From contig JACVRR010000009.1 of assembly GCA_014534345.1 (NCBI GenBank), positions 1 to 40,966 on the forward strand: a DNA stretch of 40,966 nt, read 5' to 3'. Under the pieces are notes generated by a model, which was given only the letters and a program-made list of their open reading frames with translations, did not search any database and was not told the DNA's origin. This DNA comes from Thermoleophilia bacterium (GTDB lineage: Bacteria > Actinomycetota > Thermoleophilia > Gaiellales > Gaiellaceae). Of the stretch, positions 2,400 through 6,684 are shown one piece after another. Numbering within the stretch: position 1 is the stretch's first letter; each line of letters begins with the position of its first letter. Made by a program: the position numbers and the translations under genes.

Positions 2400-2858
2400 T
2401 CAGGCGGCCTCCGCCTCGGCGCGCCCCTCGGCCAGTGCGCGGGGCCCCGGCTCCTCGAGCGTGTCGAGCGCCGCGCGTAGCAGCGCACGAACGCGCCGGC
2501 ACTCGCCCAGCAGCCGCTCCCGCTCGGCGAGCGCCTCGCGGACGGTCGCGCGCGCCTCGGCGTGCGCCTCCTCCATCACGAGCTGCGCCTCGCGCTTGGC
2601 CTGGTCCCTGAGCTCGTGCGCGGAGCGCTCGGCCGACACGAGCGTCGTGCGCAGCAGCGACTCGAGCTCCCGGTGGCGGGTCAGCTCGGCCTCGAGGTGC
2701 TCGACGCGGTCGAAGAGGTCGGCGCGTTCGCGCCAGACGTCCTCGTAGTTGTCGGCGAGCTCGGCCAGCAGGCGGTCGACCGCCCCGCGCCGGTACCCGC
2801 CGCCGAGACGCTTGCGGGGTAGCGGGCTGTGGCGCAGCTCGACGGGTGTGAGGGTCAT
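2400..2858 (-). CDS. DivIVA-domain coiled-coil protein
   Basis: N-terminal LTPVELRHSPLPRKRLGGGYRRGAVDRLLAELADNYE (DivIVA-like) then a long coiled coil; located next to yggT/lspA. Confidence 0.8.
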   Translation of the reverse strand: MTLTPVELRHSPLPRKRLGGGYRRGAVDRLLAELADNYEDVWRERADLFDRVEHLEAELTRHRELESLLRTTLVSAERSAHELRDQAKREAQLVMEEAHAEARATVREALAERERLLGECRRVRALLRAALDTLEEPGPRALAEGRAEAEAA

Positions 2859-2867
2859 CGCGACCTC

Positions 2868-3176
2868 CTAGAGACGGGTGAGCAGCGAGTTGATGACGCG
2901 CTCCGCCAGCAGCAGCGCGAAGATGGCGATAACCGGCGACAGGTCGAGCGGCCCGAGCGGGGGCAGCACGCGGCGGAAGATCCGCAGGTACGGCTCGCAC
3001 ACGTCGTACAGGAAGCGCTGGATCCGATTCAGCCAGAGGGAGTACGGCAGCCGGATCCAGCTCGTGATGATGTACGCGAGGATCAGCAGCGTGTAGACCA
3101 GCACGAACGCGCTCACGAACCGCTGGACCGAGTCGACGGCGTCCGCCAGCACGATGAAGTTGGCCAGAGCGCCCAT
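2868..3176 (-). CDS. YggT-family membrane protein
   Basis: VYTLLILAYIITSWIRLPYSLWLNRIQRFLYDVCEPYLRIFRRVLPPLGPLDLSPVIAIFALLL; typical length and YggT motifs. Confidence 0.9.
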   Translation of the reverse strand: MGALANFIVLADAVDSVQRFVSAFVLVYTLLILAYIITSWIRLPYSLWLNRIQRFLYDVCEPYLRIFRRVLPPLGPLDLSPVIAIFALLLAERVINSLLTRL

Positions 3177-3430
3177 CCGAGGTTCGTTCGCCTCCCTCTG
3201 TCCAAACCCTACGCGCGCGGGCTGCCGGCCCGCGGTTCCGCGCATCCGGAGTGACCAGGCGACCTCCCGGCGCCGATGCTCTCCGGCCGACGTCCTGACG
3301 GACCCACCTTCCGAGCACCGGCGTCCTAACTCGTTCGTGGGAGCGAGCACCCTCGGCGCCCGGTCGATGTACGCGCGTCGGGTCGAAACGACGCGAACCG
3401 CGCACACGCCAACCAACAAGGAGCTTCCTA

Positions 3431-3874
3431 GTGGAGAATTACGCACGGCGGATCGTCGGGACGAGGTGGATCCTCGCACTGACGCTCGGCGCGACCGCCT
3501 TCGCCACGGTCTTCGCCTTCGCCGCCTCGCTCACCGTCACCTCCGGCGGTCTCGGGGCCGGGAACGCCGCCGTGACCTCCTGCGACACCGACGGCGTCAA
3601 CACGAGCCACGGCGTCACCTACGCGGCCACGACGGGCTACAAGGTGACGACGGTGACGGTCACGAACATCGGCGTCAACGGCGCCTCGGCGAACGGCGCC
3701 TGCGCCGGGAAGTCAATGCGGGTCCAGCTGACCGGCGCCTCGAATGCATCGCTCGGCGAGAAGACCGTGACGCTGGCCAGCCCCGGGACAGGGAGCGACT
3801 CGCAGGTCGACTTCACGGCCAACGATGTCGCAGCCAGCTCGGTCACCGGCGTGCACGTGGTGATCTCCGGCTAG
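3431..3874 (+). CDS. Small exported protein, SipW-dependent-like (paralogue of the next gene)
   Basis: GTG start after AAGGAGC; N-terminal hydrophobic segment, then AASLTVTSGGLGAGNAAVTSC; two conserved Cys; beta-rich, Ser/Thr/Gly-rich. Confidence 0.7.
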   Translation: MENYARRIVGTRWILALTLGATAFATVFAFAASLTVTSGGLGAGNAAVTSCDTDGVNTSHGVTYAATTGYKVTTVTVTNIGVNGASANGACAGKSMRVQLTGASNASLGEKTVTLASPGTGSDSQVDFTANDVAASSVTGVHVVISG

Positions 3875-3914
3875 GCGCGCCGACGAGTCCCGACCAGCTG
3901 AGCGCGCCGGGCTG

Positions 3915-4301
3915 GTGCTCCGCCTCGTCCTTCTCGCCGTCGGCCTCGTGACCGCCGCGGCTGCCATCACCCTCGCGGCAGCCGCGGCGGTGCCCGTAGC
4001 GACATCGAGCGTCGGCGCGGGCACCGGCACGGTGAGCCGTTGCGACTCGAACGGGTTCACGTTCGCGAGCGTCCGGAACACGAGCGGAGCGATCACCTCG
4101 GTGACGGTCGGCGACATCGCGTCAGCGTGCGCCGGCGGATCGCTCATGCTGACGCTGACCAACAGCTCGAGCGCGAGCATCGGCAGCGGCTCGAGCGCGC
4201 TTCCGGCGACGGGGTTCTCGGGCTCCGCGGCAGTGAGCGTCAGCCCGCAGCCGGCGGCCACGAGCCTCGCTACGTACCGAGCCATCGTGGTCGGCCCGTG
4301 A
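3915..4301 (+). CDS. Small exported protein, paralogue of the upstream gene
   Basis: Signal-like N-terminus MLRLVLLAVGLVTAAAAITLAAAAA, then VPVATSSVGAGTGTVSRCDSNG and a C-terminal region alignable to 3431-3874. Confidence 0.65.
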   Translation: MLRLVLLAVGLVTAAAAITLAAAAAVPVATSSVGAGTGTVSRCDSNGFTFASVRNTSGAITSVTVGDIASACAGGSLMLTLTNSSSASIGSGSSALPATGFSGSAAVSVSPQPAATSLATYRAIVVGP

Positions 4302-4945
4302 GGAGCGCGCTCGCCTGCGGCCTCGTCACGGCGGCCGTCGTGGTTGGGAGCGCGTACGCAGCCACGCTCGGCGTGACGAGCCGGCAGCTCACCGAGTCGT
4401 CGCGCGCGGTCGTAGTCCAGACGTGCACGCTGAGCGCCGCGACGGCCGACTCCTACACCCGCGAGGACGCGGGGAGCTCGAACTTCGGCACCGCAACCAC
4501 GCTCGACGTGCGGAATCTGCTCGCGGCCCGGCGCTTCAGCTTCGTTCGCTTCGACCTGAGCTCTTGCGCGATCCCGAGCGGCGCCTGGGTGGAGTCGGCG
4601 ACGCTGACCTTGACCGTCCTCGCCGCACCGCTAACGTCGCTCACCTACGAGGTTCACCGCGTCACGGCTGGGTGGGGCCAGGGAACGATCACGTGGAGCA
4701 ACCAGCCCGTGGTTTCGCCCTCGCCGTCCGCGACGTTCACCACCGGGACGACTGCGCCGGCGACCCGCCAGGTCGCGGTCACCGCGGACGTCGACGCCTT
4801 CGTCGCTGGGACGGCGACGAACAACGGCTGGCGAATTCGCGACCCGAACACGCTGTCGACCGGCGCGACGCTCGTCCAGTTCGCGTCCACGGAGAACGGG
4901 ACTGCGGCGAACCGCCCACGGCTCGAGATCCGGTATGCCCGCTAG
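4298..4945 (+). CDS. Exported CBM96/DNRLRE-domain protein
   Basis: GTGA overlap with the previous stop; signal-like N-terminus; ADSYTREDAGSSNFGTATTLDVRN...RFSFVRFDLSS...ATLTLTV...VTAGWGQGTITWSNQP...GWRIRD: DNRLRE pattern. Confidence 0.8.
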   Translation: MRSALACGLVTAAVVVGSAYAATLGVTSRQLTESSRAVVVQTCTLSAATADSYTREDAGSSNFGTATTLDVRNLLAARRFSFVRFDLSSCAIPSGAWVESATLTLTVLAAPLTSLTYEVHRVTAGWGQGTITWSNQPVVSPSPSATFTTGTTAPATRQVAVTADVDAFVAGTATNNGWRIRDPNTLSTGATLVQFASTENGTAANRPRLEIRYAR

Positions 4946-5486
4946 CCCGACCGCTGCTCGGCGCCTTCGCGCCGCGCTTCGCGTGATGCGGCTCGCCGCG
5001 ACGGTCGCGCTCCTCGTCGTCTGGTTCTTCGCCTTCCGGCCGCAGGCGCTCGGCGGGCCCGTTGCATACGAGCTCGTCTCCGGTACGAGCATGCTGCCGA
5101 CATTCGAGAACGGCGACCTCGTCCTGGTACGCGAGCAGAGCAGCTACGCGGCCGGCGAAGTCGTCTCGTACCGCGTGCCGGCCGGGGATCCCGCCGAGGG
5201 CGCGCACGTCATCCACCGGATCGTCGGCGGCTCGGCCTCCGAAGGGTTCGTACTGCGCGGCGACAACCGGACGGCAACGGACCTGTGGCGACCAAAGGCG
5301 GCCGACGTCGTCGGGAGCCAGTGGCTCGCGATACCGCGCGTCGGTGATGCGGCCGCCCTGCTGCGGTCGCCGCTCGTGCTCGCCACGCTCGCGGGTCTGC
5401 TGGTCACCGCGGTCGCGCTCGGCGGACGTGGCACCCGCGAACGCGAGCAGGAACGCACTCGCGTCCGAACGCCTACGACTGGTTGA
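4935..5486 (+). CDS. Signal peptidase I, SipW/ER type (S26B)
   Basis: SGTSMLPTFENGDLVLV (Ser nucleophile), HVIHRIVGG (His general base as in ER/SipW type), VLRGDNRTATDLW; N- and C-terminal hydrophobic segments. Confidence 0.88.
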   Translation: MPASPTAARRLRAALRVMRLAATVALLVVWFFAFRPQALGGPVAYELVSGTSMLPTFENGDLVLVREQSSYAAGEVVSYRVPAGDPAEGAHVIHRIVGGSASEGFVLRGDNRTATDLWRPKAADVVGSQWLAIPRVGDAAALLRSPLVLATLAGLLVTAVALGGRGTREREQERTRVRTPTTG

Positions 5487-6024
5487 AGAAGCCGTCTCGC
5501 TCGAGGAGGCGGGCGCGCTCGGCGGCTGACACCTCGACGTTCGGCGGAGTCAGCAGGAACACCTTGTCGGCGACGCGCTGCATGCCGCCGTCGAGCGCGT
5601 AGGTCAGGCCGCTCGCGAAGTCGATCAGGCGCTTGGACAGCTCGGGGTCGGCGCCCTGCAGGTTGAGGATGACCGGCATCGCGTCCTTGAACTTGTCGGC
5701 CACCTGCTGGGCGTCGTTGAAGCTCCGCGGCACGACGAGATGGACGCGGATCGCCGCCGCGGCAGCCCCGCGGGGCGGCGCGTCGACGCTCCGCAGCCGG
5801 GCGGCGGGGCGGACGACGGCCGTCTGCGCCTCGCCCGGATCCGTCCAGTCGTCGAACTCGCCCGTCCGCCGGCGCGCCGGCAGGCGGCGCACGTTCGGAC
5901 GCTCGCGGTAGGCGCGCTCGAGGCCCTCCTCGGCGGCGTAGCCGTTCTCGTCCCACTCCTCGTCCTCGTCGTCGGCGATCCCGAAGTAGACGAGCGTCCG
6001 GTTCCACAGCTCCGCCAGGCCCAT
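5473..6024 (-). CDS. sepF: Cell division protein SepF
   Basis: IRVHLVVPRSFNDAQQVADKFKDAMPVILNLQGADPELSKRLIDFASGLTYALDGGMQRVADKVFLLTPPNVEVSAAE. Confidence 0.93.
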   Translation of the reverse strand: MGLAELWNRTLVYFGIADDEDEEWDENGYAAEEGLERAYRERPNVRRLPARRRTGEFDDWTDPGEAQTAVVRPAARLRSVDAPPRGAAAAAIRVHLVVPRSFNDAQQVADKFKDAMPVILNLQGADPELSKRLIDFASGLTYALDGGMQRVADKVFLLTPPNVEVSAAERARLLERDGFFNQS

Positions 6025-6081
6025 CCCGGAGATGCTACCCCCGTCCCCGGCGCCCCTCTCCCCACCGGCCGGGGCGCGCCG

Positions 6082-6684
6082 TCACTCGCCGTAGAGGACG
6101 CGACCGAGCCGGACGAGCGTCGCCCCTTCGTCGACGGCCACGCGCCAGTCCTGGCTCGTCCCCATCGACAGCTCGCGCAGTCCGTACGCGTCGGCCAGCT
6201 CCCGCAGGCGGCGGAAGTAGGGGCGCGACTGCTCGGGATCGTCGGCAAGCGGGGGCATGGTCATCAGCCCGCGCACGTCGTGGTACAGGCCGAGGACGCG
6301 CTCGAGCTCCTCCGGCGCGACCCCCGACTTGGTCGGCTCGCCGGAGAGGTTGACCTCGACGAGCGCCGGCACCGCGAGCCGCCGCGCCGCCGACTCGCTC
6401 GCCAGCGAGTGGACGAGCTCGCACGTCTCGTTGACGGCCTTCACCTTGCGGCTCTGCAGGTGGCCGATGAAGTGCCAGCGAAACACGCTCGCGAAGCTCG
6501 CGTGTTTGGCTAAGAGGTCCTGGACTCGGTTCTCGCCCACGACTTCGACGCCCGCGTCGGCGAGCACAGCCATGTCGCCGATCGACACGTACTTGGTGGC
6601 CGCGACGACGGTAACGCCCGGTCCCGCCTCCGCGCGGACAGCCTTATAGCGCTCGCGGACGACGTCAATCGCTAGGCCGGGCAC
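6082..6684 (-). CDS. YggS/PLPBP-family PLP-binding protein
   Basis: VTVVAATKYVS, GENRVQDLLAK, WHFIGHLQSRKVK, LVEVNLSGEPTKSGV, RGLMTMPPL, LSMGTSQDWRVAVDEGATLVRLGRVLYG. Confidence 0.92.
   Translation of the reverse strand: MPGLAIDVVRERYKAVRAEAGPGVTVVAATKYVSIGDMAVLADAGVEVVGENRVQDLLAKHASFASVFRWHFIGHLQSRKVKAVNETCELVHSLASESAARRLAVPALVEVNLSGEPTKSGVAPEELERVLGLYHDVRGLMTMPPLADDPEQSRPYFRRLRELADAYGLRELSMGTSQDWRVAVDEGATLVRLGRVLYGE

Follow-up and report, generated by a model that had tools for sequence, protein, structure and literature searches.

A conserved, apparently undescribed cassette of exported proteins and an S26B signal peptidase in Actinomycetota and Chloroflexota

The cassette and its products

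The window, i.e. the whole stretch of 40,966 nucleotides that was analysed, stems from a draft genome of a Thermoleophilia bacterium (about 69% complete), and the cassette lies internal to this 41-kb contig. A preceding sequence-only reading had described four close-packed plus-strand genes at 3431-5486, all of which were found at these coordinates. The features are as follows:

3177..3430, no strand: intergenic region between P1 and the divergently read yggT, where the promoter of the cassette presumably lies
3431..3874, plus strand: P1, small exported subunit, 147 aa, with a predicted beta domain C51-G147
3461..3523, plus strand: signal peptide region of P1, ending at the predicted cleavage site FAFA↓A, where cleavage would take place
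3524..3553, plus strand: candidate donor strand of P1, ASLTVTSGGL, residues 32-41 (mature +1 to +10), from conservation and an AlphaFold monomer model
3915..4301, plus strand: P2, small exported subunit paralogous to P1, 128 aa, same N-terminal motif region, conserved C43 and C72
4298..4945, plus strand: P3, exported protein with a DNRLRE/CBM96 domain, 215 aa, whose mature N-terminus, AATLGVTSRQL, resembles those of P1/P2
4935..5486, plus strand: Pep, signal peptidase of the S26B (ER/archaeal) type, 183 aa, with Ser52 (SGTSMLP), His94 (VIHRI) and GDN 109-111

P2 runs 4 nt into P3, and P3 runs 11 nt into Pep. An RBS-like AAGGAG is located about 7 nt 5' of the GTG start of P1 at 3431; a pattern search revealed neither a sigma-70 consensus promoter nor a terminator pattern at the cassette. 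P1 has a hydrophobic segment at residues 12-30 (approximately) with predicted cleavage after A31, and Pep carries hydrophobic segments at its N- and C-terminal ends.

P1 and P2 had been taken for paralogues with two conserved cysteines, and both statements held. The proteins were related by BLASTP (E=4e-5) and by hhalign of alignments with 49 and 30 members (99.5%, E=5.7e-23), and the two cysteines, Cys51 and Cys91 in P1, were invariant in the 49 P1-type and 30 P2-type sequences. The motifs quoted earlier were letter-exact in the window proteins. Searches of P1 and P2 against Pfam and NCBIfam matched no named family, and a P1 homologue was not found in plasmid records. A first AlphaFold model of P1 from 13 sequences was poor; a 49-row alignment bettered the domain, which then reached a pLDDT mostly above 80 (overall 76.9), while residues 34-47 stayed below 50. 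Searching this model against the PDB gave no significant fold match (best E 0.07), with TasA absent among the 50 matches listed, and the P1-family profile yielded chance-level PDB matches to a viral F protein, antibodies and chemokines (best E 0.025). The domains of P1 and P2 are probably Ig-like beta structures, a description that leans on weak but recurrent matches to FN3/Ig-type domains since no fold match was significant. In one locus (L057:3588-4852) three P1 copies stand in tandem within a single cassette, which suggests an amplified P1 in the role of major subunit.

P3 resembles P1 and P2 in its N-terminus only. The DNRLRE/CBM96 domain ascribed to it was recovered with PF24517 (E=9e-22) and NF033679 (E=2.6e-28), its scores of 99.2 and 78.1 bits exceeding the respective cut-offs of 34 and 26 bits. 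The founding CBM96 module is described as binding alginate (PMC9971899), and the domain name would make P3 a putative adhesin.

The Ser-His arrangement of Pep was likewise sustained, as SGxSMxP, VIHR and GDN are invariant in 10 orthologues. All ten matched TIGR02228 (best E 5.5e-20), the window copy with E=1.6e-13 and 50.8 bits against a curated cut-off of 51.85; the only solved relative found was Sec11C (E=0.011). The earlier label 'SipW-type' is therefore right at the level of S26B and wrong for SipW itself, for which Pep scored 21.1 bits against an equivalog cut-off of 190 (NF046067). Pep is an extra enzyme, because its own genome encodes a separate LepB-type enzyme on another contig; the genome holds no second close relative of Pep.

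Linkage, distribution and mobility

Nine loci, all within a single Thermoleophilia family, had the complete order P1-P2-P3-Pep, and two more loci were cut by contig ends. A P1-seeded search of 299 genomes of the class recovered the family in 11, plus one borderline match, and a Pep-seeded search of the same genomes scored above 250 bits in the same 11 and in no other, the next match reaching 124 bits. Among 297 genomes of the phylum, eight were P1-positive, and in seven of them Pep shared contig and strand with P1/P2 genes and lay no more than about 0.8 kb away from them; the one without a nearby Pep had the weakest P1 match. The genome of the window is one of the seven and was counted in both the class and the phylum sample; in the window itself Pep lies about 0.6 kb from P2. 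An adjacent S26B peptidase as the rule, which the sequence-only reading had made a test of its proposal, was thus what P1-seeded searches returned, with Pep present in 11/11 class and 7/8 phylum genomes and nearly always adjacent.

When 84,980 species were scanned with Pep as the seed, 49 loci were obtained; Actinomycetota, Chloroflexota and a Dormibacteraeota bin account for 47. P1/P2-family genes (E<0.01) were present in 44 of these 47, and two of the three loci without one (L066 and L077) have a contig end upstream of Pep. The P1-seeded searches carry more weight, since the Pep-seeded scan is biased by its seed. Stray P1-family genes occurred without a nearby Pep (L007, L036) or beside a divergent S26B peptidase (L034), in genomes that also contain a cassette, and looser versions of the cassette are spread over Actinomycetota and Chloroflexota. 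The four-gene arrangement is far beyond chance, and the linkage supports the view of the genes as a single unit that has an S26B peptidase of its own. We hold with high confidence that the cassette combines a dedicated peptidase with its substrates.

In the window, the cassette sits between sepF and yggT and antisense to both; in relatives these genes were same-strand neighbours, 24-480 bp apart, in all 18 readable cases. The cassette splits the oppositely oriented cluster yggS-sepF-yggT-divIVA (2400-6684). Neither sepF nor yggT was found near the cassette in eight other cassette loci examined. Cassettes lie at different genomic sites, so the set seems to travel horizontally as a unit. Its base composition is unremarkable, and no repeats flanking the insertion were recognised. 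The cassette is real, conserved and mobile. It is also apparently undescribed, as had been supposed: P1 and P2 lack a Pfam or NCBIfam family, and the literature yielded no such system outside Bacillota.

The shared N-terminal element

The mature N-termini follow the motif A-A-S/T-L-x-V-T-S-x-x-L behind a predicted cleavage site (A/G)-x-A↓A, in which A31 is present in 49/49 P1-type sequences and position -3 is always A or G. Residues 31-51 of P1 averaged 1.81 bits per column compared with 1.48 in the folded domain, and L34 and L41 are conserved within the candidate strand. A looser regular expression matched 27% of the background genes and a stricter one was used instead. With it, the motif was found in 19 of 44 other cassette genes with a hydrophobic N-terminus vs 3 of 117 such genes elsewhere, two of these three being themselves cassette genes; the Fisher P of about 5e-10 is optimistic because related genes were counted as independent. 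These other cassette proteins with the motif have DNRLRE bodies or bodies of no recognised kind.

The motif was present in 98 of 107 called proteins with a P1/P2 domain, redundant loci included. Five full P1-type domains, in five loci, lack it, and three of these are combined with RTX repeats. The latter are motif-less P1-type domains fused to RTX calcium-binding repeats (PF00353) at L046:1258-2061, L056:8033-8986 and L059:4392-5342, with their genes placed between P2 and the final substrate gene. Another motif-less domain, from a Dehalococcoidia bin (L052:6468-8177), is fused to a long Pro/Thr linker and to a hydrophobic part that apparently spans the membrane; it is possibly an anchored acceptor. 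Some operons, that of the window included, encode no domain-only protein.

The earlier interpretation as a whole was upheld in part, and its proposal that the shared N-terminus could serve as an assembly strand as well as an export signal found support: the element is common, conserved and unfolded in the model (pLDDT <50), and a role as assembly strand is plausible from conservation, modelling and analogy. Judged from sequence, the occurrence of proteins with strand and domain, with the strand only and with the domain only fits what a donor-strand fibre bounded by end pieces of two kinds would require.

Comparison with known systems and a model of assembly

In Bacillus, SipW trims TasA and TapA. 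Residues 28-38 of TasA, the first of the mature protein, form a donor strand that enters the next subunit, and TapA, which has a complete fold of its own and the N-terminus of TasA, can only start the filament (PMC9674648, PMC10151520). The cassette resembles the biofilm-fibre operon tapA-sipW-tasA and sipW-tasA/calY of B. cereus in its compact layout with an S26B peptidase and exported beta proteins, and resembles tapA-sipW-tasA further in having substrates of unlike body with common first mature residues, here P3 and other cassette proteins. It differs in the two invariant cysteines of P1 and P2, in the CBM96 domain encoded by the third gene and in its occurrence in Actinomycetota and Chloroflexota, and none of the model or profile tests made P1 and P2 homologues of TasA/camelysin. 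By analogy, the cassette likely works like SipW, TasA and TapA; judged by its sequences, it is not a member of their family.

Other likenesses are partial. Pep shares the Ser-His arrangement and conserved motifs with the S26B/archaeal-ER peptidases (TIGR02228, Sec11) and is set apart by its fixed association with P1/P2, the window copy scoring just under the curated cut-off. The body of P3 belongs to the DNRLRE/CBM96 surface proteins, from which P3 differs by its P1/P2-type mature N-terminus and its tie to Pep. The proposed donor-strand logic recalls chaperone-usher pili; unlike there, the strand would be bared by removal of the signal peptide, and no periplasmic chaperone or outer-membrane usher was found in or adjoining the cassette. 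None of P1, P2 and P3 has a hydrophobic tail at its end, so that they lack the C-terminus of sortase pilins (LPxTG, membrane segment, charged tail).

Taken together, we propose that P1, P2 and P3 would be exported by Sec, that the cassette peptidase would cut off their signal peptides and so bare the common mature N-terminus AASLxVTSxxL, and that a Cys-Cys bond, presumably a disulphide, may stabilise the P1 and P2 subunits. The free N-terminal strand of P1/P2 would then enter the next subunit by donor-strand exchange, giving rise to a surface fibre. P3, which has the strand and a complete CBM96 body and therefore could donate but not accept, would be placed at one end as a TapA-like starter or glycan-binding tip, while domain-only proteins would form the acceptor-side end subunit. 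An anchor or assembly factor was not evident in the cassette version of the window. We rate this export-and-assembly reading as a whole, donor-strand fibre included, as an even bet; for polymerisation by a donor strand taken by itself our estimate falls slightly below that.

The step assigned to Pep calls for care. In TasA, with Trp at position P2 of the cleavage site, the aromatic P2' residue makes the site refractory to LepB (PMC10269814). The cassette sites carry F, S or L at position P2, a partial resemblance (compare PMC10269814), and look LepB-compatible with Ala at P1' and S, T or Q at P2' in most cases. As the sites lack the aromatic P2', an exclusive dependence on Pep is conjectural. 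The same compatibility would agree with Pep being a general second signal peptidase that stands beside these genes incidentally, as would the other S26B subtypes that are widespread in the class without P1. Cassette-type Pep, however, occurs in exactly the P1-bearing genomes of the class and moves together with P1 to different genomic sites, which makes an incidental neighbourhood quite improbable. The main rival of the fibre reading takes the shared N-terminus for a peptidase recognition signal only, for sorting or cleavage, and the mature proteins for secreted, non-polymeric, glycan-binding ones of the surface or matrix. Much of what was observed would also be expected of such a secreted protein pair. 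The motif directly adjoins the cleavage site and sits on proteins of unrelated body, with the dedicated peptidase nearly always close by; yet the conservation in P1/P2 reaches +10 (L41) and continues as far as +20 (C51), and the five motif-less P1-domain proteins share the same operons. Signal peptidases are not known to read that far into the mature protein, and we regard this explanation as unlikely, though by no means negligible.

Strict membership in the SipW/TasA-camelysin family would account for the pairing of an S26B peptidase with small exported beta proteins and for the weak SipW model match of 21 bits. None of 17 P1/P2-family proteins, however, matched PF12389, NF046066 or TIGR04088 (positive control for the latter: L148 passes), P1 and P2 had no TasA model match, and a profile comparison with a TasA-like actinobacterial protein reached only 1%. 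PF12389 was also absent from the window's own genome, with a positive B. subtilis control, and the L006/L065 genome and Cellulomonas timonensis have a genuine TasA/M73-like gene elsewhere. Strict membership was rejected on these model and profile tests and is very improbable. That P1 and P2 are lipoproteins or sortase substrates is scarcely credible: VTSC resembles a lipobox and P2 has LPATG, but the cysteine lies about 20 residues past the hydrophobic segment, the window P2 reads VSRC, and LPATG is internal, with no membrane segment after it and a Thr that is not conserved. Both readings were rejected on position and conservation.

The donor-strand fibre, if real, might represent a new class of bacterial surface fibre, occurring in Actinomycetota and Chloroflexota. 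Its subunits, from a two-Cys beta-sandwich family that had no name before, would join by donor-strand exchange, with the strand freed by a private eukaryote-like signal peptidase and both kinds of end piece encoded in the operon. These would be donor-only (strand plus CBM96 or a body of no recognised kind) and, in some operons, acceptor-only (strandless P1 domain with RTX repeats or a membrane domain). We advance this widest claim tentatively and would not wager on it. If true, donor-strand fibres that a dedicated S26B peptidase sets free would have arisen in two large phyla on the basis of an unrelated subunit family, a function could be given to two widespread protein families that lack annotation, and the eukaryote-like signal peptidase beside LepB in scattered Actinomycetota and Chloroflexota would be explained. 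The carriers include the culturable genera Arthrobacter, Cellulomonas and Sanguibacter, so that the idea can be tested.

Canonical TasA/M73-like proteins are encoded in cassette-bearing genomes at L148:1483-2574 and at L149:1351-2082 with 2099-2980, and in Cellulomonas timonensis the TasA/M73-like gene adjoins another peptidase-like gene. In a sister genus, a membrane protein gene lies directly 3' of the peptidase:

L006:7526-8980, L035:8158-9627, L037:8565-10028, L039:8051-9457, L066:846-2306 and L044:8405-9841: membrane protein gene after Pep

Its start coincides with the last codon of Pep in L006, L035 and L066. The L006 product is clearly a sensor histidine kinase by sequence, and the gene is possibly a regulator of the cassette. 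Many class members also encode a second subtype of S26B enzyme, whose C-terminal part is long (frames of about 545-755 aa); at L034:7437-8690 a P1 copy is found close to it, as is a small exported protein whose N-terminus is of the AYA↓FTAANTVPATNAGSGSG type.
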